A stretch of DNA of 64,000 nt from Peptococcaceae bacterium (GCA_012517475.1 JAAYUV010000003.1:62001-126000); one strand, 5' to 3'. Counted from the first letter of the stretch, positions 13,207 to 58,870 are shown. Program-made: numbers and translations. Notes: generated by a model not told the origin, from the letters alone.

Positions 13207-13431
13207 CTAGTAGATCGATTCGTAAATCGTGTTAATATATTGACATCAATTCGTTTTATCCGGGCAGGTCTCTGTAATGGATAGACGCTTTCGGCAGATT
13301 GCGCCGTCCGTGGCGCAAACAGCCGCGCTCCGCATCCGTGCTCCGCTTGACGCTATCCATCCATTACAGAGACTAATCTGGGGTTAGTGAAAGTTTTTTT
13401 AGTTATCACTACTTTGGAATCGATCTACTAG
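13207..13431. repeat. 15-bp inverted repeats bracketing palindromic element A
   Basis: CTAGTAGATCGATTC at 13207-13221 is exactly inverted as GAATCGATCTACTAG at 13417-13431. Together they enclose 195 bases containing element A (13266-13376). The layout resembles a 225-bp MITE-like insertion with terminal inverted repeats, but I see no clear target duplication. The rest of the gap upstream of pyrF (13102-13206) is A+T-rich and holds no gene. Confidence 0.55.
13266..13376 (+). repeat. Nested-palindrome element, copy A
   Basis: The outer stem GTCTCTGTAATGG (13268-13280) pairs with CCATTACAGAGAC (13361-13373). Inside is the family core: ACGCTTTCGGCAGATTGCG..., an inner hairpin TTGCGCC/GGCGCAA with loop GTCCGT, then AGCCGCGCTCCGCATCC and TGCTCCGCTTGACGCT. 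Taken as the reference orientation. It lies between pyrF and the AlbA_2-type gene. Confidence 0.8.
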
Positions 13432-13469
13432 TTAATAAAAGTAGTTATATACCGAAGTTAAAAGTAGTA

Positions 13470-14861
13470 TTACTCTTGGAACTGATTATAAAACTGTGCT
13501 CCTGGTAGATAGAATGCTTTAGTATTAAGCACACCACCGCCAGGCATACCCCTACGTAAACGTTCTTGCCGCACCCAACGTTTTAATAATGCTGATGCCT
13601 TTACGGCATCTAGAATTCCTGTAACTTCCCTAAGCTCTTTGTTAGTTATTTGGCCATTTCTAATTATATATTCTTTCGTCATAACCCAAAGGTCTCCTCT
13701 AGGTTCATGAACTAAACGAACACTAACACGATTTCTATCATTTTCAAATTCAGGATCTTTTAGAAAAGCTCTTTCCATACTGGTGTAAATAGTTCTTATA
13801 CCATCACCTAAATCTCGGTTATATGTTTTTGGATATCTTGCTAACATACGCACAATATTTGGATTTCTACTATGTCTACTTGTCTTCATTTCCTCAATTG
13901 TCATATTACCTGGTAGAGGTCCTGGACTAATAATTTCTAGCTTTCTGTCGAAAATTCTCACTTGTATATCATCAGACACTGAATAATCTCTATGAATTAC
14001 TGCATTTACTAAAGCTTCTTTTAAGGCTGTTTCAGGATATTTTGCTTTCTGCGCCTGAAGTGAATCTTGAAGAAAACTTATTGTTTGATCTATTTGCATG
14101 TCTAGGGAACCTTCTATTGAAACAGGTCTATTCACCAAGTTTTCTCCAATTGGCTCTGAATCACCTTTATAATGTGAGACTCTTACAGAACATTTTCTTC
14201 CTAGTGCTACTGGCGGATTTTCATGGAAAAGTAAGATAGCACAGCGTCTTAATACTAGCCTTCCGTCTTTAATGACTGCAAGTCCATTTTTTAGCATAAA
14301 ATCATTCGCAGAACCCAATACTTTTAAGTGATCCATAATTTGAGTAACTTTTTGTTGGTCTAAATCCTGTAATGCTATCCAGTCTATTAGATCAGCTTCG
14401 GCAGAAGCAGCCCCTCTTCTATACTGTAAATTGCGAATTTCTTCCGCAGACAGTATTCGATTACTACTTCCCACACGTTGATATGTGCCTCTATCTATAA
14501 CAGTGTGAACTTCTAAACTTGGCCTTATGTGTAAAACTAGTAAGAAATCGTTAATATTATTAATATTTCGAATCCTAACCTGTTCTATTGTGTAGTATTC
14601 TTCTCTCAAGGGAGGCATAAGCCTAGATTTTAGTAAGGCTAATACCTCATCAACGTTTTGTTTATTTTCGGATACCCCATATAAACGATTTGGTCCTTGT
14701 GCCTTTTTCTCGTCCTCCAGTCCATATACAAATTTACCTCCATCAGTATTTGCAAAAGCCGATAGGGTCACCAATACTTCTGAAGGATTCTTAAGAACGC
14801 GTTTGGCTTCAAAAAAGTCACCCTCTTTCTCTAAAAGAAGTGATTCTACAGAGGTTCCCAT
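13470..14861 (-). CDS. AlbA_2 / HATPase_c_4 domain protein inserted in the pyr operon
   Basis: A 463-residue protein. Residues about 10-130 form an AlbA_2 (Schlafen-type) domain: EGDFFEAKRVLKNPSEVL, LSAFANTDGGKFVYGLED, and GTYQRVGSSNR. About 270-370 form a GHKL ATP-binding domain: ALKEALVNAVIHRDYS and LEIISPGPLPGNMT. A winged helix follows. Such proteins are predicted transcription regulators or defence-related ATPases; no substrate is known. The start has GGAAGGGGGGAG. Its DNA is visibly richer in A+T than the pyr genes on either side, and it interrupts the pyrD-pyrF order, both suggesting acquisition. It appears intact. Confidence 0.87.
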   Translation of the reverse strand: MGTSVESLLLEKEGDFFEAKRVLKNPSEVLVTLSAFANTDGGKFVYGLEDEKKAQGPNRLYGVSENKQNVDEVLALLKSRLMPPLREEYYTIEQVRIRNINNINDFLLVLHIRPSLEVHTVIDRGTYQRVGSSNRILSAEEIRNLQYRRGAASAEADLIDWIALQDLDQQKVTQIMDHLKVLGSANDFMLKNGLAVIKDGRLVLRRCAILLFHENPPVALGRKCSVRVSHYKGDSEPIGENLVNRPVSIEGSLDMQIDQTISFLQDSLQAQKAKYPETALKEALVNAVIHRDYSVSDDIQVRIFDRKLEIISPGPLPGNMTIEEMKTSRHSRNPNIVRMLARYPKTYNRDLGDGIRTIYTSMERAFLKDPEFENDRNRVSVRLVHEPRGDLWVMTKEYIIRNGQITNKELREVTGILDAVKASALLKRWVRQERLRRGMPGGGVLNTKAFYLPGAQFYNQFQE

Positions 14862-14923
14862 ACTTACTCCCCCCTTCCAACTATTAGTACAACATCTTTC
14901 TATTAATAAGATTTCTCAGTTTA

Positions 14924-15838
14924 TTAATGTGCCAGTCCGACCAGTTCCCTCACCGAACCATAGCCCTTTTTCAGGCAATACTCTTCCATGCCGCTCAGAA
15001 TATCGACCGGTGCCATGGGATTTACAAAGTTGACTGTACCCAGACTCACCGCACTTGCTCCTGCCAGCATGAATTCTATGGCATCCTGCCAGGTTGAGAT
15101 CCCGCCCATCCCAATGATGGGAAGGTTTACCGCTTCGTAAACCTGGTAAACCATCCGAACCGCGACCGGCCGGATTGCAGGTCCCGACAAGCCGCCCATT
15201 TTATTGGCCAGAAGTGGTTTTTGCGTGTGGATATCAATGCTCATACCCAAGAGGGTATTAATAAGGGATATACCGTCTGCCCCGCCGCTTTCCACCGCTC
15301 TGGCCATCTCTCCGATATCCGTAACATTTGGAGAAAGCTTGGCGATAACCGGTAAGTTTGTGTTCTTCCTCACTACGGTGATGACCTCTTCCGCACTTTT
15401 AGGATTCGTACCAAATGCCATACCCCCATGTTTGATATTGGGGCAGGAGATATTTACTTCCAAAGCGGCTATACAGGAATCCTTCTGGAATGCGGCTGCC
15501 ATAAGAGCATAATCATCCAGAGAGAACCCGGAAATATTAACGATTACTGCCGTATCAAGGGATTCCAGCTTAGGCAGATAGGATTTTTTGAATTCCTCCA
15601 ACCCGGGGTTTTCTAACCCTACTGAATTTAAGAGACCGGATGGGGTTTCCGCTAATCTTGGGACCGGATTTCCAAGTCTGGGCAGGGGAGTTATTCCTTT
15701 GACGGTAATTCCGCCGAGGAAAGAAACCGGACAATAGGGTGCATATTCCTCACCAAAACCGTAGGTTCCGGAAGAAGTCAGGATCGGGTTCCTTAGTTTC
15801 ATCCCCGCCAGTTCTGTTGTCATATCAACTTTTTGCAT
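14924..15838 (-). CDS. pyrD: Dihydroorotate dehydrogenase class 1B, catalytic subunit
   Basis: A 304-residue FMN enzyme oxidising dihydroorotate to orotate. It shows SSGTYGFGEEYAPYC, GLLNSVGLENPG, the active-site loop NISCPNIKHGG (Cys base, class 1B type), and FMN phosphate residues in GMGGISTWQDAIEFMLAGA. It overlaps pyrK by 14 bases and starts after GGAGGTGGTCTGGG. Together they form the NAD-linked PyrD-PyrK complex typical of Firmicutes. Confidence 0.97.
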   Translation of the reverse strand: MQKVDMTTELAGMKLRNPILTSSGTYGFGEEYAPYCPVSFLGGITVKGITPLPRLGNPVPRLAETPSGLLNSVGLENPGLEEFKKSYLPKLESLDTAVIVNISGFSLDDYALMAAAFQKDSCIAALEVNISCPNIKHGGMAFGTNPKSAEEVITVVRKNTNLPVIAKLSPNVTDIGEMARAVESGGADGISLINTLLGMSIDIHTQKPLLANKMGGLSGPAIRPVAVRMVYQVYEAVNLPIIGMGGISTWQDAIEFMLAGASAVSLGTVNFVNPMAPVDILSGMEEYCLKKGYGSVRELVGLAH

Positions 15839-16652
15839 CCCAGACCACCTCCTCGGCTTTTAAAACAGGCCCCTCTTTGCAGACTCTTTTTCTTTTTAGA
15901 TTCCCGTCCTCTCCCTTTACCGTACAGACACATCCTAAACAGGCCCCGATACCGCAAGCCATTCGTTCCTCAAGCGATACTTCCAGGGGGATATTATTCT
16001 TCAGGCAGATTTCCGCCGCTGCTTTTAACATCCCTTTGGGACCACAGGCTGCGGCCGCAAGAAGATGGTTATGATTCAAATCTGCAAATCCGGAATCCCG
16101 GATACCCGCCTGCAAAAGATCCGTCACCAATCCCTGATGTCCCAGGCTTCCGTCCATCGTGGAAATCTTCAAATTTACACCCGTATTCAGGATGTATTTC
16201 AGATCTGCGCTTTCCAGGAAATCAATATTCTCGCCACCCCAAAAGAGATGGATTTTGACCTGCTCCCGGTCTACAGCCTGGATGAGCGAGTAAAGCGGGA
16301 ACACTCCAATCCCTCCGGCAATAAGCAACAATTCTCCTTTTTGAGGAATGGTAAATCCCGTACCTAATGGTCCAAGCACACTTATATAGTCATTCTCTTT
16401 AAACCGGGTTAAAAGATCAGTCCCTCTTCCCACTACTTTATAGTAGATCGTGACCTCCTCTTTTACCCTGTTGATTCCCGCAATACTTAACGGCCTCCTG
16501 AGAAGGGGGTCCTGGGTTGCCGATACTTGGATATGAAGAAATTGGCCAGGTTGTGCGGTTTTGGAAATCTGACCGCTTAATACGAGCTTATAGATTCCCT
16601 GAGAGGGATGCCCAATAAGCCTGTTTTCGACGACTCTTTGTTTCAGGTACAT
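15825..16652 (-). CDS. pyrK: Dihydroorotate dehydrogenase electron transfer subunit
   Basis: A 275-residue FAD and [2Fe-2S] protein. The FAD site has DPLLRRPLSIAG, the NAD-binding region has LLIAGGIGVFPLYSL, and the cluster ligands lie in ERMACGIGACLGCVC with a fourth Cys in KRKRVCKEGP. It passes electrons from PyrD FMN to NAD+. It is 23 bases downstream of carB and overlaps pyrD. Confidence 0.96.
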   Translation of the reverse strand: MYLKQRVVENRLIGHPSQGIYKLVLSGQISKTAQPGQFLHIQVSATQDPLLRRPLSIAGINRVKEEVTIYYKVVGRGTDLLTRFKENDYISVLGPLGTGFTIPQKGELLLIAGGIGVFPLYSLIQAVDREQVKIHLFWGGENIDFLESADLKYILNTGVNLKISTMDGSLGHQGLVTDLLQAGIRDSGFADLNHNHLLAAAACGPKGMLKAAAEICLKNNIPLEVSLEERMACGIGACLGCVCTVKGEDGNLKRKRVCKEGPVLKAEEVVWDAKS

Positions 16653-16675
16653 AACTTGACCGCCCTTCTTTGTTA

Positions 16676-19600
16676 TTAGCTCAGAGGGATAAGACTAGGG
16701 GAATTGACCTCCAGGACCTGAAGCCAGGCCTGTGCCGTATCGAGGCTGGTAAAGCAGGGGATACCCTGTTCCACAGCCGTCCTTCTGATGGCAAATCCGT
16801 CACTGGCAATTTTCTTTCCGTGAGTGGTCGTATTTAAGACACACTGAACCTGACCTTTTCGGATTTTTTCCGTAATTTCATCAGAGCCTGTATGCAATTT
16901 CCCGACTGTTGCTACTTCAATTCCCGCTTCCCGCATGGCCTTTGCAGTTCCCTGGGTAGCTACGATTCGGAACCCCAGGTGATAAAACCTTTGCACCAGT
17001 TTGATCCCCTCTTCCTTATCTCTGTCAGCCAGTGTAGCCAGTAGCGTCCCATGAGCCGACATGTGCATCCCGGCTGCCAGCAGCGCTTTATACAGGGCTT
17101 TTTCATACTTGCGGTCAATCCCCATGACTTCACCGGTAGACTTCATTTCAGGACCTAAAGAAGGTTCTACCAAGAGAAGCTTGGAAAATGAGAAAACCGG
17201 CGCTTTCACTGCAACTTCATCTCCGACAGACCAAAGTCCGGACTTTATTCCCATATCTGCCAGCGTTTCTCCTAAAATCACTCTGGTAGCAAGTTCCACG
17301 ATAGGTACCCCTGTCACTTTGCTGAGAAATGGCACTGTTCGGCTGGAACGGGGGTTGACTTCAAGAACATAGACTTCGTTTTTATAGATGACATATTGAA
17401 TATTCAATAGCCCTTTAATATTTAAGCTTCGGGCAATGGATATGGTAAGATCGGAGATGGTATTCTGAATTTCCGCGCTGACCATTTGCGGGGGGTAAAC
17501 AGCAATGGAGTCGCCGGAATGAATCCCCGCCCTTTCCAAATGCTCCATAATTCCCGGAATACAAACGGATTCTCCATCCGATATGGCATCAACTTCAACC
17601 TCTTTGCCAAGAAGGTATTGGTCCATCCAAATTTGCTGTCCGGGAAATTCCCGGAGTGCTTTGGTAAATACACTAACAAGTTCCTGGGGTTCATAAACGA
17701 TCTGCATGGCACGTCCCCCCAGGACATAAGAAGGACGAACAATCAGCGGAAAACCGATTTCTCCTGCAAGTTTTTCGGCTTCTTCCATGCTGGAGATGCA
17801 GCCTCCCCTTGGCCTCCGTGCCCCAAGCTCCTGCAGGACATCATCAAAAATTCCTCTTTCCTCTGCCCTGTCCGTATCTTCCACGGTTGTGCCAAGAATT
17901 TGATAGCCGCGAGCCGAGAGTCCCTTGCATAACCCGATCGCCGTCTGCCCGCCAAATTGAACAACCACACCTTCGGGTTTTTCCTTTTCCAAAACAGCGG
18001 TGACATCCTCAATGGTTAAAGGTTCAAAATAAAGCCTGTCAGCCGTATCAAAATCCGTGGAAACCGTTTCCGGATTGTTATTGATAATAATGCTTTCAAC
18101 TCCTGATTTACGCAAAGCCTTTACAGCATGTACCGAACAATAATCGAACTCGATTCCCTGACCGATGCGGATCGGTCCCGATCCGAGGACAACCACTTTT
18201 CTCCGGTTTGAAACCATCCCTTCATCTTCCTGGTCATAGCTGGAGTAAAAATAGGGGGTAGTGGCTTCAAATTCCCCTGCGCAGGTATCTACCATTTTAA
18301 AAACAGGCCTGATTCTATGCTTCATTCTGAATTCGTAGATCTCTTCTTCGGTCGTATTCCATAAGCGCGCCAGTTCTTTGTCCGAGTAACCGATCCGTTT
18401 GGCCTTAACCAAGGCATCAGGATTCCAGGGGTTATTCCGTATTTGTTCGGCATGTTGAACGATGGTCTGAATCTTCTTTAGGAAATAGGGATTCCACTGA
18501 TTCAATTCTGTAATGGATTCTACTGTCCACCCCCGGCGAAAAGCTTCCGCCATTGCGAACAAAAGAAGATCATCCGGCTTCCCGCATTTTGCTTTCAGTT
18601 CTTTGTCACTTAGTTTTTCCATTTCTTCCGAAAAGAGACCATAAGACTTGGTTTCCAGAGACCGAACGGCTTTGAGCAGGGCCGTTTCCAGATTGCGCCC
18701 CAAACCCATCACTTCACCGGTAGCTTTCATCTGGGTGCCAATCGTCCTGTCGGCATCGGAAAATTTGTCAAAAGGCCAACGGGGTATCTTTACTACAACA
18801 TAATCCAAAGCAGGTTCAAAACAGGCAGAGGTTTTACCTGTTACGGTATTGGTAAGTTCATCCATGGTATAACCTATGGCAATTTTTGCCGCCACCTTGG
18901 CAATGGGATAACCGGTCGCTTTGGAGGCCAGCGCGCTGGACCTGCTCAAGCGGGGATTTACTTCTATTACCACATACTCCAGCTTTTCCGGATGAAGAGC
19001 AAACTGAACGTTGCAGCCGCCTTCGATCCCCAAAGCAGCAACAATCTTCAAAGCGGAAGTTCTTAATGTTTGTACTTCCTTGTCCGTTAACGTCTGGCAG
19101 GGCGCTACGACAATACTGTCTCCGGTATGGATGCCAACCGGGTCCATATTCTCCATATGGCAGACTGTAATGGAATTCCCGTTGCTGTCCCGCAAAACTT
19201 CATATTCGACTTCTTTCCAGCCGGCAACACTTTTCTCAATAAGGATCTGCCCGATCATGCTTGCTTTAATGCCGCTTAAAGCGATCAGCTCAAGATTATC
19301 GGCATCATGGGCAATGCCTCCGCCCGTGCCCCCCAGGGTAAAGGCGGGACGGACGATGACAGGATATCCAATTTCTTCGGCAAATGTTAATGCTTCTTCT
19401 ACATCCGATACGATAGCGCTGGCGGGAATTGGTTCTCCAATTTCCTGCATCAGATTGCGAAAATGTTCCCTGTCCTCTGCTTTACTGATACTTTCCAACG
19501 GGGTTCCCAACAAGGTCACACCGCAGCGCTTAAGAATCCCTGCTTTGGAAAGTTGAAAAGCGAGATTTAAACCGGTTTGTCCGCCCATGGTTGGGAGCAG

Positions 19601-19852
19601 TCCGTCCGGCCTTTCTTTTTCGATAATTCTCTCTAAAAACTCGAGAGTAAGTGGTTCAATATATACTTTATCCGCAATTTCCCTGTCGGTCATAATGGTC
19701 GCAGGGTTGGAATTGACCAGTACGGTCTCGACTCCTTCTTCACGTAACGCCCTGCAGGCTTGGGTACCCGCATAGTCAAATTCGGCCGCCTGGCCGATGA
19801 CAATTGGGCCTGACCCGATAACCATAACTTTTTGCCAGTTTTGTTTCGGCAT
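16676..19852 (-). CDS. carB: Carbamoyl-phosphate synthase large subunit
   Basis: A 1058-residue enzyme with the two tandem ATP-grasp halves expected of CarB. The first half starts [20 protein letters not shown] (about 10-29), and the second repeats the pattern in [20 protein letters not shown] (about 555-574). An MGS-like allosteric domain ends the protein (about 930-1050; [17 protein letters not shown]). With CarA it makes carbamoyl phosphate from glutamine, bicarbonate and 2 ATP. Ends and length are normal. Confidence 0.98.
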
Positions 19853-19866
19853 TTTTTTCCCTCCGC

Positions 19867-20946
19867 CTATTCCTTCAACATTTCAGCAAATAAATCAAAA
19901 AGTTCTCCGTTTTCCTCCGGACCCGGTGCTGCCTCAGGATGATACTGTACTGTCAGGACCGGATATTTCTCATGTTTCATTCCTTCAACGGTGCCATCAT
20001 TCAGATTTGTATAAAGTACCGCCAGTCCCGTTCCCTTCAGAGACGATTCACTCACCGCATAACCATGATTCTGAGAAGTCATTGTCACTTTCCTTGTGAC
20101 TTTGTTCTGGACAGGATGGTTCCCGCCCCTGTGGCCGAACGAAAGCTTATATGTGGAAGCCCCTGCAGCCATCGCCATAATCTGATGACCCATGCAGATT
20201 CCCAAAATAGGCAATCTCGAAATCAACTTTTCCATATTCTCGGCTATCTCAGGCAACCTGCTGGGGTCACCAGGGCCATTGCTTAGTACAAGTCCGCTTG
20301 GTTTAATGTCCAGGATTTCTTCAGCAGGAGTTCCCGCAGGAAAAACATGAAGCCGGTATCCTCTTTTTTGGAGACAACGGAGTATATTTCTTTTGGCCCC
20401 AAGGTCCAGAACTGCAACAACCGGACCGTTTCCCGGTATTTCATATTCCTCTGCTACGGTAGCCTGGTAAACCCAGTGTAAATCAGGCTCAATCTCTTCT
20501 GGGGTATACTGCTGCCAAAAGGCAATTCCCTTCTCTATTTGTTCTACAATAACTCCGGGCATTGTCCCGTTATTACGGATATAACGCGTTAATGCTCTTG
20601 TATCTACCCCTTTTAATCCTGGAATTCCTTGTTTCTTGCAATAGTTTTCCAGACTTCTGTCAGCGTGAAAGCTCCCTTCCCCAGCAGAAAGTTCCCGGAC
20701 TATGATTCCATGCAATAAAACCTTGCTTGCCTCACTTTCTTCGTGATGCCAGCCATAATTTCCGATTTGCGGGTGAGTAAAAGTCAAGATCTGACCTGCA
20801 TAAGACAGATCGGTAATCATCTCCTGGTAGCCGCACATCGAAGTATTAAATACTACCTCTCCCTTGACCGCACTGTCTTGACCGGGCCATCCGCCAAAAG
20901 CTTCGCCCTCAAACGCTTTGCCGTCACCTAAAACCAGCCACGCCAT
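19867..20946 (-). CDS. carA: Carbamoyl-phosphate synthase small subunit (glutaminase)
   Basis: A 359-residue class I glutamine amidotransferase. The N-terminal CarA domain has the conserved [20 protein letters not shown] stretch. The catalytic triad is visible: nucleophile Cys in [11 protein letters not shown] (about 245), and His and Glu in [13 protein letters not shown] (about 325). It hydrolyses glutamine and channels ammonia to CarB. It lies 14 bases upstream of carB and starts after AAAAAGGAGG. Confidence 0.98.
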
Positions 20947-21020
20947 CCTGCTGCCTCCTTTTTCTTATAAGCTTTCCGATTTTGTATTTCTATCAAGTGA
21001 TTCCAGCATATACAGTTTAA

Positions 21021-23274: not shown

Positions 23275-23297
23275 TGATGGAGCCTCCTCATCATATA

Positions 23298-23376
23298 ATA
23301 ACCTCCTGCCGAAGGGCAGGAGGTTATGAAGCAATTTCTCTTACCCTTGGATATCTCACAGGACACTTTTAAAGGG
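23298..23376 (-). promoter_or_regulatory. PyrR-dependent attenuator in the pyrR-pyrB gap
   Basis: On the minus strand CCCTT (23376-23372) and AAGGG (23348-23344) close a stem whose loop side contains GTGTCCTGTGAGATAT, matching the PyrR RNA-binding core UCCNGNGAG. A 13-bp hairpin with loop CTTC follows (23327-23298), then pyrB. The hairpin has only a weak T-tract, so it may attenuate by termination or by masking translation. Classical PyrR action is inferred from the family. Confidence 0.68.
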
Positions 23377-23395
23377 ATCGCTTTAATCTTATTTT

Positions 23396-24097
<702 letters not shown>

Positions 24098-30413: not shown

Positions 30414-30651
30414 GGATTCCCCTCCAGAGAGTAGAATATTAAAAAATATTAATAAATATTGATAGAAATAAATAAATATTAATATGTTTTGTAATATAAT
30501 ATTACCGCGAAATCAAAACTCTGTCTACTTAATTTTGTATTAATAGGTATTTATACTCTAAAACAAAGGATCCCGCTCCAGATGGAAAGGGATCAAAAAA
30601 TTTTTAATAAAGAAAATTTACGCCTTTGGTTCATAAACCTTTATAGGGTAT

Positions 30652-30757
30652 GGCTATGTAATGTATAGCCGCTTTCGGCAGATTGCGCCCTCCGTGGCGC
30701 AATCTGCCGCGCTTCGCATCCTGCTTCGCTTGACGCTGGCTTATACAGTACATAGCC
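30652..30757 (+). repeat. Nested-palindrome element, copy B
   Basis: The outer stem GGCTATGTAATGTATA (30652-30667) pairs with TATACAGTACATAGCC (30742-30757), one mismatch. Inside is the core with a perfect 14-bp inner hairpin CGGCAGATTGCGCC/GGCGCAATCTGCCG, loop CTCCGT, then GCGCTTCGCATCCTGCTTCG. Same orientation as copy A. It lies in the 767-base gap 30414-31180 upstream of the chemoreceptor gene; the remainder of the gap is A+T-rich and holds no gene I can support. Confidence 0.85.
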
Positions 30758-31005
30758 TGGTCTCTGGTTTTATGCAGTCCATTTTTTTAGTTTATATTTT
30801 TGCAAGTATTAGTCCAGAGTCTTTCCTGTGAATCCAAATACCAAAATTGGTGAGGTTTTGAGGTTTTTTCTTTTCTGCAGCACTATAGTTAAAGCCCGAG
30901 TGTCTCTATTTAAGAATTTCCTCATAAGTATGCATTAGTTCGTCTTCATCGGCCTACTCCGTTTTAGGAATACCCAAAAGAAACGTATTCCTTTGCCTAA
31001 TATTA

Positions 31006-31109
31006 ACGTAATGTGCTCTAACCGCTGCAAGCGGAGCAAGGATTGCGAAGCGCGGCTGTTAGCGTCAGGAGGACGCTATCTGCCGAAAAGCGGTTTGAGT
31101 ACATTACGT
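31006..31109 (-). repeat. Nested-palindrome element, copy C (inverted relative to B)
   Basis: Outer arms ACGTAATGTGCTCTAACCGC and GCGGTTTGAGTACATTACGT pair over about 21 positions with one G-T pair and one mismatch. The inner hairpin is TAGCGTC/GACGCTA with loop AGGAG. The core (AAGCGGAGCAAGGATTGCGA, AGCGCGGCTGTT, TATCTGCCGAAAAGCGG) is the reverse complement of copies A and B. It lies 248 bases from copy B and about 70 bases downstream of ylmH. Confidence 0.85.
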
Positions 31110-31180
31110 AACCCAATCAGAAAAGAAATAATTCTATTCATTTTAAACAAACTACCTTTTTTGAAAAGTATTAAATTGGT

Positions 31181-45662: not shown

Positions 45663-45890
45663 TTCCTCTTCCCTCCCTTTCTTAACTTTGCCCATCTCAG
45701 GCTAATAAATTGATAAGATTTGATATGCCTATAATTTTCCTTGGTGCTTCTAATAATATTTTACATCCTAAATAAGAAAGATGGAATATGTATTTTGTAT
45801 AATGTATACATTTTTTTGAAAAAATTAGACCTTCCCATGCAAACATACAAATAGGCATCGCAAAACCACTTAAGCCTTTTATCCAGGTAT

Positions 45891-46066
45891 GTCTCCGCAA
45901 TGTATAGCCGCTTTCGGCAGATCGTAAAGGCCCGCTCGGCCTTAACGCCTCCATGGCCGACGCTCCTTGCCGTCCTGGGCATCGCGTCGCTAGGCCATCC
46001 ATGGCCGTCGAAACAGCCGCGCTCCGCATCCTGCTCCGCTTTACGCTGTCCATACATTGCGGAGAC
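45891..46066 (+). repeat. Nested-palindrome element, copy D (176 bp, with extra internal module)
   Basis: Perfect 15-bp outer stem GTCTCCGCAATGTAT (45891-45905) with ATACATTGCGGAGAC (46052-46066). It has the family core at both sides (AGCCGCTTTCGGCAGAT and AACAGCCGCGCTCCGCATCC). The inner hairpin is replaced by a longer module with AAGGCC/GGCCTT and GGCCATCCATGGCC hairpins; its CGCTCCTTGCC...GGCATCGCG...TAGGCCATCC series is shared with copy F. Confidence 0.85.
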
Positions 46067-46826
46067 TAGTTTGTGGTTAAAAATGTCTGTAGATTTTGCA
46101 AGTCAATACCTTTCAGAAAGTTCCTGTTCTGCAACTTTCTCTCGAAAAATACGGTTTTTAGGCTTTTTAAAAGGCCTTATAAAGGCCTCATTTTCGTTTT
46201 TAGCTACTATCCTCTTCCCAAAAATATTTTGGGTCTTACAGGGCAAATACGAAGGGGGTTTTTGGGCTTATTTAAGCCATTTTTCGCAAAACCAGCCCCA
46301 AACCTGTCAAATGAATTTTCTGAATTTGGAACCTTTCCTGAAACCCTTGATAATAGCGCCTTCAGCAACAACATTTGCTTATTTTTTGCTTAATAAGAAG
46401 TAAGCTTAGCGCAAAGAGCACCTTTCAATGCCCCCCAGAAGACAAAGGCCATATATGGAAAAAGGGATAAGCCGTTGCAACCCTTTATTTTCTTCGGGTA
46501 CCTTCAACTTGTAATTAACGCTAGTATTATATGGACAAGTCTCATCTTTACAATAACGTTCAACCATTCCCGAAGTGTCATTTTACATCCATATATTCTA
46601 TATTTCGAGAATGGAGTTAGCCGAAGTTTTCCCGCTACGGTGGAATACGGGGCAATGAAGCTACGAAGAAAATTTCCGAATTATTTCCTGGGTTTTGCCG
46701 ATTAATCTTCTCCAAATTATAGTAAGATAATATTACCAAATAATTTCCATAAACATATATTTCTATTTGGATATAAATTCTTATATAATAAATATGTAAA
46801 ATTTTGATCTAGCAGGACTTTTTGTT
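46067..46826. other. Non-coding or decayed stretch of 760 bases
   Basis: No reading frame here has a family signature, a good ribosome site or a likely protein composition. There are short hairpins near 46160-46190 (AAAAGGCC/GGCCTT) and a decaying frame at 46475-46705 with no recognisable domain. The stretch begins right after element D and ends before an inverted repeat at the GNAT module. It may be remnant mobile DNA. Confidence 0.4.
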
Positions 46827-49393: not shown

Positions 49394-50092
49394 CCCATAA
49401 AGAGCATATTGGCTGCTATCTGCGGTTTCGAGGGTTCAACTCCTGGTATCGGTACTTTTTACGATTTGCTGACCCGGTTGTGGCTGGCTAATGCCCCGCA
49501 GAAAGCCATTCAAAAACCTAAGTCTAAAGGCCGTAAACGTCCCAAATCCGGCGAAAAACTTAAACCAAAACATCCTGGCATCGTCAAAAAACTGGTAGAC
49601 CAAGCCTTGAAGGGACGCATTATTGAGAAAAGACCGGAAAGAATTTTGCAGAGAATATTAAAAGAGTGTGCCGTTATTCCATCGTCCAAGCTTGGTCTGC
49701 TTGGTAATCCTGATAACCTGGCAGTTTCCGGTGACGGATCCCCACTCCTAACCGGCGCCAGTTCCCGTGGTAAAAAGCTCTGCAAATGCCCTGCTCAAGG
49801 CATCTACCACTGCCAGTGTGAGCGCTCTTTTACCGATCCAACTGCTAATTGGGGGTGGGATAGTTATCATGGAACAATGGTTTTATGGACACACCCTGTA
49901 CTCTATTACTTCGGCAGATAGTCCAAATGACCTGCCTATTTTTCTGCGTTTAGTACAGGGTTCCCGTCATGATAGTGTCACTTTTGTCTTTGCCTGGGTT
50001 GAACTGCTTAAACTCTATCCCGAATTTAAGTTCAGTAAGGCCCTTTTGGATTCGGCCCACGATGTCTATGACATTTATCGCTTGCTAAAGGT
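49394..50092 (+). pseudogene. DDE transposase remnant (IS4/IS1182-like), truncated and frameshifted
   Basis: The frame from about 49394 reads LAAICGFEGSTPGIGTFYDL and NLAVSGDGSPLLTG, with a Cys-rich block KLCKCPAQGIYHCQCERSFT and then NWGWDSYH. One extra G at about 49871 shifts the frame, and the homologous text EQWFYGHTLYSITSADSPND and ALLDSAHDVYDIYRLLK continues in the next frame. The N-terminus and the C-terminal catalytic part are missing; the remnant stops exactly where palindromic element E begins. Confidence 0.8.
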
Positions 50093-50196
50093 ACGTAACG
50101 TCCTCTAACCGCTGTAAGCGGAGCACGGATTGCGAAGCGCGGCTGTTTGTGCCAGGAGGGCGCAATCTGCCGAAAAGCGGTTGGAGGACGTTGCGT
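50093..50196 (-). repeat. Nested-palindrome element, copy E
   Basis: Outer arms of 21 positions (left starts ACGTAACGTCCTCTAACCGC, right ends GGTTGGAGGACGTTGCGT) pair completely with two G-T pairs. The inner hairpin is TTGTGCC/GGCGCAA with loop AGGAG. Same orientation as copy C, to which it is closest. It abuts the transposase remnant on one side and the ftsZ terminator on the other. Confidence 0.87.
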
Positions 50197-50210
50197 CAAC
50201 ATGCAAAATA

Positions 50211-50240: not shown

Positions 50241-50268
50241 CCTTTTACATATTCTCAACTTTTTTAAA

Positions 50269-51336: not shown

Positions 51337-51473
51337 CCTTTTCTCCTGCCTCCTTTAATTACATCTTCTATCAAAATAGCGTATATTTCAAAAACCTTAA
51401 TAACCAACTATATAAATTCTAGCTAATACCCAATTACTCCTCTTTTTTGCTATATTAATATTTTTGTTTAGTG

Positions 51474-51815: not shown

Positions 51816-51830
51816 GTTTAATTCCTCCGC

Positions 51831-52556
51831 CTAGCGTCCTAATACAGGCTTGCCTGCTGTAAGATCGATATATTTAATTGCTTTTTCCACGGATTTATAC
51901 TCTTTGCTGTCCAACAATTCTTTCAACAGCCTCAACTTCTCGGTGAATTGATCACCGTACCCTAGTTTAACCTGAGTTCCCGATGTCAGATAAAGATTAA
52001 CCTGTCCGTCAGAATTCATATGAATTTCACCAACAAGTGGTGATAAGCCTTCAGGGGCTTGTCTTATCAGAAGAAGGGCTTTATCCAGTTGAGGATACCC
52101 CAGCTTCTGACCCGGTCCTATGGTTTCCGGCACTTGTATGCCGGTGATTACCGGTTGGTCTTTTTGGGGCCAAGTTTCATAAAATCTCAGAATTGTCCCC
52201 TGGGAATCCACCTCCACCATTCCGTCATTACTAAGGATCAAGGCAACCGGAACACGTTCCTGAATCTTCAGAATCAATGTTCCAGGCAATGCTTTTTTTA
52301 TTTCAACTTTGTCAATTAAAGGATGAAGCCTCACCTTTTTCGCGATAGCCTCTGTATCTGTAAGAAAGATGTTTTCTCCCTTCACGGCTCCCATCAGCTT
52401 TATTACTTCATCCTCGGAAACATTCGTTAACCCTGTAGTCTTAATATCTTTTACCGAAAAAAAGTTGGACTTTGAAAACATGAATAATCCTACTGCCAAG
52501 AGGCAAATCATCGCTGCAATATATAGAAGAACCGTATTGGGCTTTTTTTGCGGCAA
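51831..52556 (-). CDS. ftsQ: Division protein FtsQ/DivIB
   Basis: A 241-residue single-pass membrane protein: helix VLLYIAAMICLLAVGLFMFS, POTRA domain (about 33-105; NFFSVKDIKTTGLTNVSEDE, LIDKVEIKKALPGTLILKIQ) and the FtsQ beta domain. Start is TTG at 52556 after AGGAGA (eight bases). It recruits FtsB/FtsL to the septum. Confidence 0.93.
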   Translation of the reverse strand: MPQKKPNTVLLYIAAMICLLAVGLFMFSKSNFFSVKDIKTTGLTNVSEDEVIKLMGAVKGENIFLTDTEAIAKKVRLHPLIDKVEIKKALPGTLILKIQERVPVALILSNDGMVEVDSQGTILRFYETWPQKDQPVITGIQVPETIGPGQKLGYPQLDKALLLIRQAPEGLSPLVGEIHMNSDGQVNLYLTSGTQVKLGYGDQFTEKLRLLKELLDSKEYKSVEKAIKYIDLTAGKPVLGR

Positions 52557-52628
52557 TCGTACTCTCTCCTACCCCTTGTCATTTTTGTTTATTTTACAAT
52601 AAGAGCCTAAGATGGTGCAAACATTATT

Positions 52629-53894
52629 TTATGGCTGTTTTACTACCCTTTGCAATTTGGCCCCTAAGGCGCGATATTTTTCTTCCAGGTTTTCATATCC
52701 GCGATCGATATGATCTACTCCTTCCAGGACCGTTCCCTCTTCCGCGGCCAAAGCGGAAAGAAACAGAGCAGCTCCCGCACGCAAATCCGTAGCTTCTACA
52801 AAGGCCCCTTCTAATGTCGGGACTCCACAGATAATTGCGGCACGGCCTTCAATCGTAATTTTCGCTCCCATCCGGGTCAATTCCGCAACATGTTGAAAAC
52901 GGTTTTCAAATATTGTCTCTGTAACAATACTCGTACCTTCTGCCATTGTCAGCAATGCCATAAATTGCGGCTGCATATCCGTGGGAAAACCGGGATAGGG
53001 TAATGTCTTAATATCAAATGCCTTTAATTTTCCTTTATGTCTTACCCTTGCACTTTCCCCGTTGACGGTTACTTCAGCTCCGCCCTGACGTAGTTTTGCT
53101 ATCACCGGGCTAATATGTTCGGGAATTACATTTTCAACAGTAATATCTCCGCCCGTCATTACTGCTGCGATTAAATGGGTTCCGGCCTCAATTCTGTCAG
53201 GGATCACTGCATGCTCCGTTCCGTTTAATTTTTTAACGCCATCAATCCGGATAATATGTGTTCCTGCCCCTCTGACTTTGGCTCCCATTTTATTGAGAAG
53301 ATTCTGCAAGTCGACGATTTCCGGTTCCCGGGCAGCATTGCGGATCATGGTGGTTCCCTCGGCTAATACTGCTGCGGTCATTATGTTTTCCGTGGCCCCT
53401 ACACTGGGAATGTCCAGGTAGATTTCTCCGCCTTTTAGCTTTTTCGCCGCTGCTTCAATATAACCATGTCTTTCCTGGATCGTTACTCCTAATTCTTTTA
53501 ACCCTTTAAAATGTTGATCCATTGGACGGGTGCCGATCGCGCAGCCGCCGGGCCTGGATATTTTTACCCTGCCGTTTCTGGCAATCATGGGGCCAAGGAC
53601 CAGATTCGAACCCCTCATTTTCCTCATGAGTTCTTCGTCAACAGTTGATCCATTAAGCGTTGAACTATCTATCACTAACTCATTATCCTTAAATTCGGTT
53701 TGACAACCCAGTTTGTTTAATACCCCGATCATATGCATGATATCTGAAAGTCTTGGTACTCCCTGCAGGACAGTTTTCCCTTCACTCAGGATTGTTGCCG
53801 CCATTAATGGAAGAGCAGCATTTTTTGCTCCGCTCGTTCTCACACGCCCTTCCAGTCTTTGTTTTCCCGTAATGACATAACGATCCATCGTCAT
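52629..53894 (-). CDS. murA: UDP-N-acetylglucosamine 1-carboxyvinyltransferase MurA
   Basis: About 421 residues from the ATG at 53894 (MTMDRYVITGKQ), seven bases after AAAGGAGG; an ATG two codons later also fits. Motifs: LEGRVRTSGAKNAALPLMAA (Lys22/Asn23 site) and GGCAIGTRPMDQHFKGLKEL (catalytic Cys, the fosfomycin target, about 117). First committed step of peptidoglycan synthesis. Confidence 0.97.
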   Translation of the reverse strand: MTMDRYVITGKQRLEGRVRTSGAKNAALPLMAATILSEGKTVLQGVPRLSDIMHMIGVLNKLGCQTEFKDNELVIDSSTLNGSTVDEELMRKMRGSNLVLGPMIARNGRVKISRPGGCAIGTRPMDQHFKGLKELGVTIQERHGYIEAAAKKLKGGEIYLDIPSVGATENIMTAAVLAEGTTMIRNAAREPEIVDLQNLLNKMGAKVRGAGTHIIRIDGVKKLNGTEHAVIPDRIEAGTHLIAAVMTGGDITVENVIPEHISPVIAKLRQGGAEVTVNGESARVRHKGKLKAFDIKTLPYPGFPTDMQPQFMALLTMAEGTSIVTETIFENRFQHVAELTRMGAKITIEGRAAIICGVPTLEGAFVEATDLRAGAALFLSALAAEEGTVLEGVDHIDRGYENLEEKYRALGAKLQRVVKQP

Positions 53895-53914
53895 GTCTCC
53901 TCCTCCTTTTGGCA

Positions 53915-54799
53915 TCAGCCAGTAATCACTTTTATCTCGGTTTCGAGTTTTACACCGAATTTAATCAGAATATCCGCTTGTATATCTTGGATAAGCTTGA
54001 GAATATCCTCAGACCGCGCATTCCCTTTATTCACGATAAAGTTGGCATGTTTTTCTGAAACCTGAGCGTCCCCTACGCATTTTCCTTTCCACCCTGCCTG
54101 TTCGATAAGCCGGCCGGCCGAGTCCCCGGGGGGATTACGAAATACACTTCCCGCATTGGGATATTCCAAAGGCTGCGTCCGCTTTCTTTTCTCCATTAAA
54201 TCTTTGATTTTCTCCTTCATGAGACCGCCTTCTCCTCCGGGCTTAAGCAGGAACGAACTTTCCAACACAATATATTTTTTATCCTGAAGAGAACTCTTCC
54301 GATAACCGAAACTGATATCGTTCCGGTTAAACATCCTGATCTCGCCTTCCGGAGTAAGCACCTTGACATCCTGTACCCAATTTCCGATCTCTTCCCCATA
54401 AGCTCCGGCATTGATTGCGATAGCAGCTCCCACCGTTCCGGGTATCCCGCAGGCAAACTCAAGGCCGTTTAACCCTCTTTCTGCAGCTTCCCGGGCAAGA
54501 CGCATGAGGGAATACCCGGCCTCGGTCCGGACAGATTCTTTTTCCCAGCGAATTTTATCTAATTGAGTATTCACAATTACCATACCCTGAAATCCCTGGT
54601 CCGGAAGAAGAACATTGGACCCGTGACCCAGAAAAAGCAAAGGCTTTCTATAGGTTTTACACCAGCTAAACATTTCTGCCAATTCATTCAGGTTTTCAGG
54701 CCAAAAAACCATTTCCGCCTGTCCGCCGGTTTTCCAGGTATTCAGTTTTTTTAACGGATAATTTTTTTCTAGTCTGCCTTTAACATCCGGTAAATCCAT
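53915..54799 (-). CDS. murB: UDP-N-acetylenolpyruvoylglucosamine reductase MurB
   Basis: About 294 residues from the ATG at 54799 (GGAG eight bases upstream); an in-frame GTG at 54808 lies too close to the same site. FAD-binding motifs FLGHGSNVLLPDQGFQGMVI and GIPGTVGAAIAINAGAYGEE, and the catalytic Ser in AGSVFRNPPGDSAGRLIEQA. It reduces the MurA product to UDP-MurNAc. The 175-base gap to murG is where murC is often found; it holds no gene. Confidence 0.97.
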   Translation of the reverse strand: MDLPDVKGRLEKNYPLKKLNTWKTGGQAEMVFWPENLNELAEMFSWCKTYRKPLLFLGHGSNVLLPDQGFQGMVIVNTQLDKIRWEKESVRTEAGYSLMRLAREAAERGLNGLEFACGIPGTVGAAIAINAGAYGEEIGNWVQDVKVLTPEGEIRMFNRNDISFGYRKSSLQDKKYIVLESSFLLKPGGEGGLMKEKIKDLMEKRKRTQPLEYPNAGSVFRNPPGDSAGRLIEQAGWKGKCVGDAQVSEKHANFIVNKGNARSEDILKLIQDIQADILIKFGVKLETEIKVITG

Positions 54800-54974
54800 T
54801 ACGTTCACTCCAGGTAATCATTCCGTAATGAGGTTCTGCTCCAGCTAACGATTTGATATGTAAAAGCCCCTGTCTTCCCCCTTTCTCCTACTGCATATGT
54901 TATGCAATAAGAGAAAACAGTGTGCACCGCGGTTTTAGTCCAGTGGGCTTGTCCGCACTATCGTTACAGTAGGG

Positions 54975-56084
54975 CTATCTCCAAGCCGTCTGAAGACATA
55001 GGGTGACAATTCTATCTAAAGCGCCGGGAGAAAATATCTCTTTTGCTTTGGCGCCCATTTTTTCCAATTTTATTTTATCAAAAACAATTTTTTCGATGGA
55101 TTGCCATAATATCGTTCCATTCAGTTCGCTGTCCAAAATCATGAAAGCAGCCCCTTCGTCCTTGAAGGCTTTCGCATTGTATTCCTGATGATTTTCTGCC
55201 GCATAGGGATAGGGAATAAGAATACTGGCTTTACCGGCTGCCGAAAGTTCCGCCAGGGTGGTAGCTCCCGCCCTGCAAATACAAAGATCCGCACAGGCAA
55301 GCGCCTGCGGCATATTTTCGATATATTCCCTGATTTTCCAGTTCTCTTTCCGCCAGTTTATTTTTCTGGATTTCATTTCTTCAAGAATCGTCTGAAAAGT
55401 AGCTGATCCGGTAGCCCAAATGATTTGGATCTGAGGATGGTCTTCGAGTTTTTGAAGGACATCGAGCCATGCCTTATTGATACTCAAAGCCCCTCTGCTT
55501 CCGCCCGTAACCAGGATCGTCCTTTTTTCCGGGTCAAGCTCAAATTCAGCAGCGGCTTCTTTTCTGTTGATCTTCCCTATTTCCTCTCTGACCGGCAACC
55601 CTACCACTTTTATCTTTTCTTTTACGGGGAAATGTTCCACACTCTCCGGGAAGCTCAACATCACGGCCTTCACTACCCTTGACAAAAGCTTATTTGTTTT
55701 TCCCGGTAGTGCATTTTGTTCATGCAGAAGGGTAGGAATACCAAACAGTGCGGCAGTAAGGACCACCGGCCCCGACACATATCCTCCCGTTCCCACGACA
55801 AGATCCGGCCGAAATTCTTTAAATACCTGTTTTGCCTCCCAAAGTGCCTTGAAATTGAGACCGGCCGTTTTCAGCGTATCAAAACTAAATGAACGGGGGA
55901 GACCTTTACCCGAAATTCCTTTAAAGGGAAGACCGCTCTCAGGTACCAACCTGGCTTCCATCCCTTCCCTTGTCCCTACATAAAGCACTTCCGTATCGTT
56001 GTGTTTGTCAATTAATCCCTTGGCAATAGCCAGAGCCGGGTATATATGCCCGCCGGTTCCGCCCCCTGTAACAATCACCCGCAA
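54975..56084 (-). CDS. murG: Lipid II synthase MurG
   Basis: About 369 residues from a TTG at 56084 with GAGGGGG nine bases before; an ATG at 56111 would extend into ftsW. The glycosyltransferase motif RVIVTGGGTGGHIYPALAIA starts the protein, with LLHEQNALPGKTNKLLSR and ICRAGATTLAELSAAGKASI for donor binding. It adds GlcNAc to lipid I at the inner membrane face. It follows ftsW by four bases. Confidence 0.96.
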   Translation of the reverse strand: MRVIVTGGGTGGHIYPALAIAKGLIDKHNDTEVLYVGTREGMEARLVPESGLPFKGISGKGLPRSFSFDTLKTAGLNFKALWEAKQVFKEFRPDLVVGTGGYVSGPVVLTAALFGIPTLLHEQNALPGKTNKLLSRVVKAVMLSFPESVEHFPVKEKIKVVGLPVREEIGKINRKEAAAEFELDPEKRTILVTGGSRGALSINKAWLDVLQKLEDHPQIQIIWATGSATFQTILEEMKSRKINWRKENWKIREYIENMPQALACADLCICRAGATTLAELSAAGKASILIPYPYAAENHQEYNAKAFKDEGAAFMILDSELNGTILWQSIEKIVFDKIKLEKMGAKAKEIFSPGALDRIVTLCLQTAWR

Positions 56085-56088
56085 TTGT

Positions 56089-57198
56089 TTAAACCCCCTC
56101 AGAATTATCACTTGCCGAGATATTTAGCAGCAATCCCGCCCCAGCCATGGTAAATAAAAGAGATGTTCCGCCATAACTTAAGAAAGGAAGAGTTATTCCC
56201 GTAACAGGGAGTACCCCGGTTACCACACCCATATTGATCATGGCTTGAATTCCAATGAGTGATGTAAGGCCTACCGCCAACAAACCCAAAAAATTATTGG
56301 ATGCCTTCATGGCCGTTCTAAATCCACGCCATATGAAAAGGAAAAACAGCAGTACAACCAACGTTGCTCCAATAAAGCCCAGTTCCTCACCTATCATGGC
56401 AAAAATAAAATCCGTATGATTTTCCGGCAGGTAGAGAAATTTTTGCCTGCTTTGTCCAAGTCCCAATCCAAACAGCCCTCCCGGACCAAGCGCCAGCAAT
56501 GATTGAATGGTCTGATATCCTTTGCCGGAAGGATCTGCCCAGGGATCCAAAAAAGCAAATATTCTGCGCATGCGGTAGGGAGCTGCAATAATCGCTGCCA
56601 CTACCAATCCAACCCCTGCAAAGCCCAAGCCCGCCATATGCCACATATTGGCCCCCACCGCCAAGAGCATAAAGAATACTGTGGCGGCGATAACCAATGT
56701 CGTTCCGAGGTCCGGCTGCAGCATAATAAGAGCACATACAACCCCCAGTAACCCCAGAGAAGGAATAATCCCTTTCCGGAAGGATTTAATATGATGAGGA
56801 TTTGCGGAAAGAAACTTGGCCATGACCAGAACCATTGCCAATTTAATCACTTCAGACGGCTGTATGGAAAGAATCCCGACTCCTATCCATCTTGTTGCAC
56901 CATTTACGGTCTTGCCTATTCCCGGTATTTTCACTAAGACCAACAGCAAAAGGGCAAAGAGGAAAATCGGTTTGGCCCATGTATAGAGAAATCTCCAGTC
57001 AATCATGAGCGCAACGGTCATGGCGGCCAGCCCTAACCCAACCCATATTAAATCTGCTTTAAAATAATGGTAAGGATCCTCATAATAAAGATAACCTTTA
57101 ACTGCACTCGAGCTGTAAGTCATGATGATCCCAATGAGAAGAAGGATGAGAATTACCCCTAAAAGTACGGTATCCACTTTACGGTATCTGGCGAACAC
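56089..57198 (-). CDS. ftsW: SEDS-family polymerase FtsW/SpoVE
   Basis: About 369 residues from a GTG at 57198, seven bases after GGGGG; the longer reading overlaps murD and is not membrane-like. It has about ten membrane segments and SEDS motifs NGATRWIGVGILSIQPSEVI, YLPENHTDFIFAMIGEELGF, and TGITLPFLSYGGTSLLFTMA. It polymerises lipid II with a class B PBP (SpoVD here). SpoVE and FtsW cannot be told apart by sequence alone. Confidence 0.95.
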   Translation of the reverse strand: MFARYRKVDTVLLGVILILLLIGIIMTYSSSAVKGYLYYEDPYHYFKADLIWVGLGLAAMTVALMIDWRFLYTWAKPIFLFALLLLVLVKIPGIGKTVNGATRWIGVGILSIQPSEVIKLAMVLVMAKFLSANPHHIKSFRKGIIPSLGLLGVVCALIMLQPDLGTTLVIAATVFFMLLAVGANMWHMAGLGFAGVGLVVAAIIAAPYRMRRIFAFLDPWADPSGKGYQTIQSLLALGPGGLFGLGLGQSRQKFLYLPENHTDFIFAMIGEELGFIGATLVVLLFFLFIWRGFRTAMKASNNFLGLLAVGLTSLIGIQAMINMGVVTGVLPVTGITLPFLSYGGTSLLFTMAGAGLLLNISASDNSEGV

Positions 57199-57220
57199 AT
57201 AGCTACCCCCTTTTAAAAAA

Positions 57221-58582
57221 TCAATCGGGTTCGCTATAATGCTTACGCACCAAATCCTTAAACAATTCCCCTCTTTCCTCATAACTTTTAAACATATCCC
57301 AACTTGTACAGGCTGGGGAAAGCAAAACCACATCCCCCGGCTCCGCCTCTCCGATAGCCTTTTGTACGCAATCTTCAAACCCTGTTGACCGGATAATTCT
57401 TTTTATTCCCAGGTTCTTGGCTATAATTTCCATTTCCTCCGCGGCTTGCCCTACAAGCACAAGGCTTTTTACTTTTTTAGCTTCTGTCAGGAATTCCGTC
57501 ATGTCGAGTCCCTTATTTTTCCCTCCGGCGATCAGCACGATGGGCTCTTCATAGGACTGGAGAGCTTTGATGGATGAGTCCGGATTGGTCCCCTTGGAAT
57601 CGTTGATGAACAGGATGCCATTAAATTTTCCTACGATTTCCTGCCGGTGTTTGACCGGTTCAAACTTGCGGAGAACCTTGGCGATCTGATCAATCCCCAA
57701 ACCCATTTCCAAAGCTGCCGCTACGGATGCCATTGTATTTTCAATATTGTGTTTCCCGCGTATTAACAGTTCTTTGCCGCAAATGATTTTTGTGGACTGC
57801 TTAGCGGCTTTTAAAACAATATCCTCACCATCCAGGCAAATTCCGTCATCAAGCTGTTCTTTCAGGCTGATATAGACTACCCTTGCTTTGGTTAACCGGG
57901 CAAAATCTCTGACTGCGGTATCATCCCAGTTTAAGATGGCAAGATCCTCTTCCTTTTGATTCTCAAGGATTCTCGCTTTAGCCGAAGCATAATTCTCCAT
58001 CGTTCCGTGACGGTCCAAATGATCAGGGGTTAAGTTTAATACAATTGCGATATGGACTCTTAATTGTTCGATAAATTCCAGCTGAAAACTGGATAATTCC
58101 GCTACAATAATTCCCCCGTCTCCCACCTGGTCAACCTGACTGCTTAGCGCGATCCCGATATTCCCCGCAACAACCGTATCTTTACCCGTTTCTTTGGCCA
58201 GTTCTCCTACCAGGGTCGTGGTTGTTGTTTTTCCGTTGCTTCCGGTCACAGCGGCAATCAATGCCTTTGAATCCCTCAGGGCGAGTTCCACCTCGCTCCA
58301 AAGGGGCACTCCTTGATGTGCTGCCTCCTGGATATAGGCCAGTTTCGGAGATACCCCCGGAGAAAGGACAACCAGATCGGGTTGAATCAAGTTGATATCC
58401 GGTTCTTTTTCCAGAACAAGATGTTCATCATCCAAACCGACTTCCGCTAAGCCGTTCAATTTCTCCTTGGGCTGCATATCGGTAAGGAATACTTCCGCAC
58501 CCATGCCCAGAAGCTTCCCGGCAGCGGCTATCCCGCTTTTGCCCCCGCCTACAACGAGTACTCTTTTACCCTTATAATCCAT
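57221..58582 (-). CDS. murD: UDP-MurNAc-L-alanine:D-glutamate ligase MurD
   Basis: About 453 residues from the ATG at 58582 (MDYKGKRVLVVGGGKSGIAA). Mur-ligase motifs: ATP loop AAVTGSNGKTTTTTLVGELA (about 110), NLTPDHLDRHGTMENYASAK, and LFINDSKGTNPDSSIKALQS. It adds D-Glu to the stem. Its upstream gap (58583-58874) is filled by palindromic element F. Confidence 0.97.
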   Translation of the reverse strand: MDYKGKRVLVVGGGKSGIAAAGKLLGMGAEVFLTDMQPKEKLNGLAEVGLDDEHLVLEKEPDINLIQPDLVVLSPGVSPKLAYIQEAAHQGVPLWSEVELALRDSKALIAAVTGSNGKTTTTTLVGELAKETGKDTVVAGNIGIALSSQVDQVGDGGIIVAELSSFQLEFIEQLRVHIAIVLNLTPDHLDRHGTMENYASAKARILENQKEEDLAILNWDDTAVRDFARLTKARVVYISLKEQLDDGICLDGEDIVLKAAKQSTKIICGKELLIRGKHNIENTMASVAAALEMGLGIDQIAKVLRKFEPVKHRQEIVGKFNGILFINDSKGTNPDSSIKALQSYEEPIVLIAGGKNKGLDMTEFLTEAKKVKSLVLVGQAAEEMEIIAKNLGIKRIIRSTGFEDCVQKAIGEAEPGDVVLLSPACTSWDMFKSYEERGELFKDLVRKHYSEPD

Positions 58583-58637
58583 TGATCCATTCCCCCAGGA
58601 AATCAAGTTATTTTTTGCCCAGATATTTTTTTCACGC

Positions 58638-58870
58638 TTATCTATTTGGGCAATTACTTAGCGAACCGTGGAGCAGAGAAGCGTCGAGAGTGCAGTTGAT
58701 TTTGCGTTAAGCTGCGCAACGGTTGACGGCCACGGATGGCCTAATGTCGCGATGCCATGGATGGCAAGGAGCGACGACATCAGGTATTACCCTGAGGTTT
58801 TGCGCAGTAGCAAAATTAACAAACGAACAGCTTCGGCCCGTGGTGAGCGGGTAATTGCCCAAATAGATAA
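58638..58870 (-). repeat. Nested-palindrome element, copy F (233 bp)
   Basis: 20-bp perfect outer stem TTATCTATTTGGGCAATTAC (58638-58657) with its complement at 58851-58870. An inner palindrome pairs GTTGATTTTGC...GCTGCGCAA with TTGCGCAGTAGCAAAATTAAC. The center has GGCCACGGATGGCC and TGCCATGGATGGCA hairpins. In reverse it carries the same CGCTCCTTGCC...GGCATCGCG...TAGGCCATCC module as copy D. It fills the mraY-murD gap. Confidence 0.85.

Follow-up and report, generated by a model that had tools for sequence, protein, structure and literature searches.

The 64,000-nucleotide stretch of Peptococcaceae bacterium DNA analyzed here (the window; positions 62001-126000 of contig C88 in a 115-contig assembly of 3.68 Mb) carries six palindromic repeats, designated A to F (Table 1). 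Taken together, our data make it likely that copies A to E are palindromes of the RF01731 (TwoAYGGAY) type that resemble miniature inverted-repeat transposable elements (MITEs), and that were in part moved by IS1182-family transposases; their loops may have been selected as RNA hairpins. Five features of these repeats are directly observed: their position in the RF01731 neighborhood, their copy number, their insertion polymorphism, ends that they have in common with an IS1182 transposon, and the maintenance of pairing along with the conservation of the loops. The loci on which our analysis relied are the stretches around element copies from the window genome and its relatives. One relative (G001) belongs to the same genus as the window genome and shares an element copy with Candidatus Dichloromethanomonas elyunquensis (LNDB01000025); five others (G002, G012, G017, G021, and G023) form a single genus that we take to be Dehalobacter.

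The repeat core and its relationship to RF01731

The palindromes lie where a previous sequence-only reading of the window had placed them, and the structured core that it claimed for A to E was recovered in the window by a covariance model (R1) trained on 17 copies, with E-values from 1.3e-36 to 1.8e-22; this search missed F. The internal module proposed to be common to F and D was found as well (Table 1). Each copy has the long outer stem and inner hairpin previously described; copy A proved to be longer, its 21-nt outer inverted repeats having their end sequence at C88 75207(+) and 75411(-), which correspond to window positions 13207 and 13411.

With the plus strand taken as the one that carries CTTTCGGCAG, the core proceeds from an outer stem (P1) to a hairpin P2 (GCGCC-NTCCNT-GGCGC and variants thereof) and a hairpin P3 (GCG-CTCC-GCA-TCCN-TGC-TC-CGC). 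On the opposite strand, the GGA strand, the tips of P2 and P3 both read ANGGAN, and P3 holds a GA/GGAG internal loop, which in copy A is of the tandem-GA type. Among 179 distinct copies, an A(N)GGAN tip is present in 264 of the 401 hairpins predicted on the GGA strand versus 5 of 438 on the other; 167 copies possess at least one such tip, and 91 have two or more. The ANGGAN tips occur on at least 29 different 5-nt stems and have therefore been retained while the stems vary.

At the gathering threshold, an Rfam search of the window yields no match. A permissive search, in contrast, aligns copy A (13386-13253, GGA strand) to RF01731 with 41.5 bits (E = 0.0032; gathering score 43), the alignment setting CACGGAUG on the AYGGAY loop, so that a threshold-level search alone would wrongly suggest novelty. 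Copies B to F were not among the matches of the permissive window search (E <= 10). Elsewhere, cores on the GGA strand scored 45.2 bits (L018, in the window genome), 46.6 bits (L068), 42.9 bits (L071), and 41.5 bits (L013); L018 and L068 thus pass the gathering criterion, and copy A and L013 fall just under it. The repeat core is best classed as a divergent branch of RF01731, and the family is consequently not the unrecognized one for which it had been taken. An outer stem followed by two hairpins with A[Y/N]GGA[Y/N] tips, and alignments at or just under the gathering score, are common to our repeats and RF01731 (clan CL00106); the repeats studied here differ in the arms and lengths of P1, in a short P3, and in that most copies score below gathering.

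In 2010, RF01731 was described as a probable RNA to which no role had been assigned (PMC2864571); on the strength of two CsrA motif matches, a 2014 study proposed it to be a CsrA-binding small RNA of Clostridia, which would make it the first CsrA sponge outside the Gammaproteobacteria (PMC4333381). In the literature searched, it figures as an RNA whose function is unknown, or as a candidate CsrA small RNA, and not as a mobile repeat. When we searched 399 Bacillota genomes for RF01731, 51 had matches, many of them at least six. Twenty canonical copies from four of these genomes show long, covarying outer palindromes that extend past the Rfam model and are repeated within each genome; on this small sample, the repeat character reaches beyond the lineage of the window. 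Some of the canonical copies in one genome, G316 (L269-L272), are framed by GAGTCACGGGGACGG-type arms, another outer palindrome, and nesting therefore occurs there, too.

Transposon ends, empty sites, and spread

The core is found within several kinds of outer shell. Y-type elements measure about 150-235 bp and carry GGGGCTGTTGCAAAAC ends that are identical at many unrelated loci (61 matches versus none for the reversed control), and X- and W-type elements measure 225 bp and have CTAGTA-type ends. These are short, non-coding, multi-copy sequences with terminal inverted repeats, as in MITEs, and the empty sites that had been suggested as a check do exist, precisely, in sister species at two loci. 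At L113, a 225-bp insertion in G002 with CTAGTACAA ends and TA at its start and end is absent from G012 and G023 (flank identity 98-99%), and G017 contains a copy that has lost the core between its P1 arms. At the second locus, L104, G012 and G017 have the empty site. A further intergenic site, L100, is without an insertion in G021; in G002 it is occupied by an X-type copy, and in G012 and G023 by one of the W type.

The ends of the Y and Z types are shared with an IS1182-family transposon. G002 contains two copies, 99.85% identical, of this 2.04 kb transposon (NF033551, 327.8 bits), whose ends are AAAGGCGGTGTTGCAAAAC and AAAAGGGGCTGTTGCACAAC. The core lies between the stop codon of its transposase gene and the transposon end, in the 3' untranslated region, with the GGA strand in the sense orientation. 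Since G021 (L061) and the window genome (L041) have this junction too, there with a decayed transposase, the association between IS1182 and the core is old. In being short and non-coding and in sharing their terminal inverted repeats with an IS1182-family transposon of a related genome, the repeats resemble IS1182-derived MITEs; unlike these, the core also occurs in shells with CTAGTA ends and in copies that have no shell, and it is therefore not bound to one transposon family. Around ten lone IS1182-type ends without a nearby partner were noted in the window genome (L122, L125, and other GGGGCTGTTGCACAAC sites), some of them forming palindromes of roughly 50 bp, and at L127 (260-304) a 45-bp palindrome consists of two Y-type ends only, an element minus its core.

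Nesting is a recurrent trait of these elements. Many copies hold a double hairpin of 51-54 bp in their P2 arm, and F, D, and other palindromes contain it as well; in two cases (L146 versus L139; L073 versus L062) one species has it and another lacks it at the same site. The module of F matches the Dehalobacter loci L233, L235, and L236 with 100% identity over 53 bp.

The window genome harbors about 50 copies (47 matches by BLAST with copy A; 56, a few of them partial, by the covariance model), so that the expectation of further copies was borne out. With 12 matches for the true core pattern and none for its reversed control, the number of repeats in the genome is far above chance. Several assembly contigs (L002-L005) stop a few bases past Y-type elements, and copies are for this reason probably undercounted. 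Covariance-model matches were obtained in 16 of 61 genomes, the window genome counted; each Dehalobacter genome has at least 48-63 copies, and the complete ones at least 53-55. Weak, distant copies appear in a second family of the order; a class-wide search found no copy of this branch in a fourth family, and neither the core pattern nor the module had a match in phage, plasmid, and viral collections. Abundant as these repeats are in dechlorinating Dehalobacter, the literature searched holds no description of them.

These findings lend themselves to the following model. Copies A to E would be non-autonomous, MITE-like palindromic DNA, and F another palindrome with a module of the same kind. 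Copies of the core reside inside differing transposon ends: those with IS1182-type ends (AAGGGGCTGTTGCAAAAC), the Y type among them, would probably be mobilized in trans by IS1182-family transposases, and those with CTAGTA-type ends and an apparent TA target duplication would, on account of these very features, employ a different transposase. Subsequent to insertion, copies would be altered by paired changes, by exchange of whole arms, and by the nested entry of the double hairpin. The GGA loops may be retained as RNA hairpins when a source element is transcribed, with CsrA as the candidate reader; that they are kept for being read in this way is a proposal we regard as clearly doubtful.

Several observations weigh against this model. 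Copy A by itself remains 1.5 bits under the Rfam gathering score. The apparent TA duplication comes from one well-aligned W-type site whose right flank has diverged, no clear target duplication is seen at Y copies, and for the CTAGTA ends of the X and W types no autonomous partner was found within 3 mismatches. Many copies occupy conserved orthologous places (27 sites), and hence not all of them are recent insertions. Finally, G041 (91% complete) and G015 (84%) carry many copies and have no CsrA match.

Paired changes and alternative explanations

That the arms differ between copies and nevertheless pair was confirmed across 107 distinct copies: 95.9% of the cells are paired, 26 of the 29 pairs have been altered in both members, and the covariation score amounts to 0.473. 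Shuffles score 0.120 +- 0.005 (0/500), and sliding the partners gives no more than 0.092. For copies C and E, the seventh outer pair (T-A versus C-G), the inner stems, and the AGGAG loop are as previously described, except for one T.G wobble in the inner stem of E. As shuffles leave relatedness uncontrolled, orthologous copies were compared as well (60 comparisons at 27 sites common to Dehalobacter genomes; mean flank identity 93.6%). P1 showed 30 double Watson-Crick changes, 21 one-sided changes, and 5 unpaired doubles; the corresponding numbers for P2 were 42, 16, and 1. Independent change would yield almost no doubles, and pair-preserving doubles exceed one-sided changes. At one site with the same surroundings in four genomes, P2 reads GCGCC/GGCGC, GTGCC/GGCAC, or GCGTC/GACGC, and G023 stands apart in P1 through compensated changes at isolated pairs. 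The P2 variants are seen again at other sites, and whole inner arms swap at orthologous sites, a recurrence that fits whole-arm exchange between copies.

The step previously taken from maintained pairing to selection on a folded molecule is thus less direct than it seemed: the pairing is real, but hairpin-templated repair or arm exchange also change both arms. One could go further and view the repeats as functionless, neutral palindromes in which such repair, together with gene conversion between copies, is all that keeps the arms paired. The excess of paired over one-sided changes at orthologous sites, the exchange of P2 arms as blocks, and the scarcity of non-Watson-Crick pairs (G.T pairs account for just 1.1% of cells on the modeled strand) are in keeping with such a scenario. 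It leaves unexplained, however, why loops stay constant across many stems, why the tandem-GA loop is conserved, and why RF01731 members of distant Bacillota have the same architecture; we judge it very unlikely.

A role for the host would offer another explanation for the loops. The repeats might be sponge RNAs whose transcribed, paired ANGGAN hairpins titrate CsrA in the manner of CsrB or RsmZ, with the host selecting copy number. Their tips fit the CsrA hairpin consensus and are conserved while the stems change, RF01731 has already been proposed to bind CsrA, and CsrA was found in most of the genomes studied (50 of 61). Clustered non-Watson-Crick events are also G.U-type somewhat more often on the GGA strand (62) than on the other (40), a tilt that is weak at best. 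Like CsrB, CsrC, RsmY, and RsmZ, the repeats present GGA in hairpin tips, in pairs; those sponges, in contrast, are single-copy small RNA genes with promoters, and here we deal with dozens of palindromic DNA repeats on no fixed strand. Taking the GGA strand as sense, neighboring genes were tandem sense in 24 cases, tandem antisense in 31, convergent in 26, and divergent in 8, as judged from the crude gene calls of a simple open reading frame caller. The elements favor neither strand with respect to neighboring genes, and divergent (promoter) gaps are avoided; this pattern speaks against a fixed-orientation, cis-acting RNA and agrees with a mobile element that is tolerated. The anatomy of a mobile element and the empty sites likewise argue against a host-serving sponge, as do CsrA's equal frequency in element-free relatives and the failure to find it in the two incomplete carriers mentioned above. 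This alternative is, in our estimation, quite unlikely. The co-occurrence of CsrA was dropped as a discriminator, given that the protein is equally common with or without the elements.

Of the natures formerly considered for the repeats, that of mobile palindromes is upheld by the empty sites and terminal inverted repeats, and that of termination signals is not supported: no T-run follows the outer stem in the copies inspected, and orientation is not fixed. Mobilization by an HUH transposase (a RAYT, the transposase associated with repetitive extragenic palindromic [REP] sequences), as in REP doublets forming hairpins (REPINs), is highly improbable. REP sequences, bacterial interspersed mosaic elements (BIMEs), and REPINs are likewise intergenic palindromes that at times stand in inverted pairs, here about 100-250 bp apart; our elements are larger (110-240 bp, with an internal anatomy unlike that of 20-40 bp REPs), nested, and without association with an HUH transposase, and their ends are of the IS1182 or CTAGTA type instead. 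Copy-rich genomes (48-63 copies) lack a Y1 transposase; no Y1_Tnp match was obtained in G012, G017, or G023, each of which has about 60 copies, and an HUH/REPIN origin was rejected on this genome co-occurrence. BIME-like inverted pairs formed by two subfamilies were noted at six Dehalobacter loci (L057, L058, L062, L073, L105, and L107). By architecture alone, our elements can also be likened to the pneumococcal BOX and fungal mitochondrial double-hairpin elements, whose modular hairpins are nested or repeated.

Collectively, a family whose annotation is that of a regulatory RNA presents itself here as a repeat borne on transposons. Multiple copies and nested palindromes characterize a large branch of RF01731 as well as the canonical members that we examined, and the branch described here has transposon ends and empty sites in addition. 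Because paired change can arise in mobile DNA, covariation in such families needs a new reading. Whether transposons carry CsrA-type hairpins has become a directly testable question. The sweeping generalization that TwoAYGGAY as a whole is a transposable palindrome spread through the Bacillota as MITEs, with IS1182 and other transposons bearing CsrA-type decoys as paired hairpins at the 3' ends of their mRNAs so as to control their transposase or the CsrA of the host, seems to us unlikely.

Copies, modules, and neighboring genes in the window

Table 1. Palindromic repeats of the window and their parts. Arms are those detected by an independent inverted-repeat search; bit scores refer to covariance model R1.
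Feature	Position	Strand	Outer arms	Remarks
Copy A, full element, X shell	13207..13431	minus (GGA strand)		outer inverted repeats CTAGTAGATCGATTCGTAAAT flank the core
Copy A core, P1 outer stem with P2 and P3 hairpins	13266..13375	minus	13268-13285/13356-13373	127.6 bits
P2 hairpin of A, TTGCGCC[GTCCGT]GGCGCAA	13299..13318	minus		minus-strand loop ACGGAC (ANGGAN); predicted from sequence and fold
P3 hairpin of A, GCG-CTCC-GCA-TCCG-TGC-TC-CGC	13325..13346	minus		minus-strand loop ACGGAT
Copy B core	30650..30759	minus	30652-30667/30742-30757	116.7 bits; Z-type subterminal right flank
Copy C core, C/E subfamily	31004..31111	plus (GGA strand)	31006-31026/31089-31109	86.3 bits; subfamily alignment
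Copy D core, enlarged P2 branch	45889..46068	minus		86.1 bits
Nested double-hairpin module in D	45958..46009	minus		two GGA tips; 84.6% identical to the F module over 52 bp
Copy E core, C/E subfamily	50089..50208	plus (GGA strand)	50093-50113/50176-50196	82.0 bits at 50089-50199; relatives align to 50208
Decayed transposase-like reading frame(s) interrupted by E	49409..50108	plus		...SAHDVYDIYRLLK, then element sequence; frame open to 50108
F, different larger nested palindrome	58638..58870	plus	58638-58657/58851-58870	20/20 outer arms; fold -106.9 kcal/mol, loops ACGGAT and ATGGAT
Nested double-hairpin module of F	58723..58776	plus		common to D and more than 20 other loci analyzed

The copies do in general lie between genes, as had been claimed; E, however, abuts the decayed transposase-like frame and is intergenic only since that gene is dead. 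The transposase-like label was given by eye, a Pfam search of the frame returned no match, and no other copies of it were found in the six genomes searched. Copy A is situated between an orotidine decarboxylase gene (12409-13101) and a gene for a Schlafen AlbA_2/RecG C-terminal-type ATPase (13470-14861, minus strand). Upstream of pyrimidine genes, the minus strand of the window has two leaders that resemble PyrR binding sites (23292-23379 and 23963-24056), with 44.0 and 42.8 bits at a gathering score of 54.

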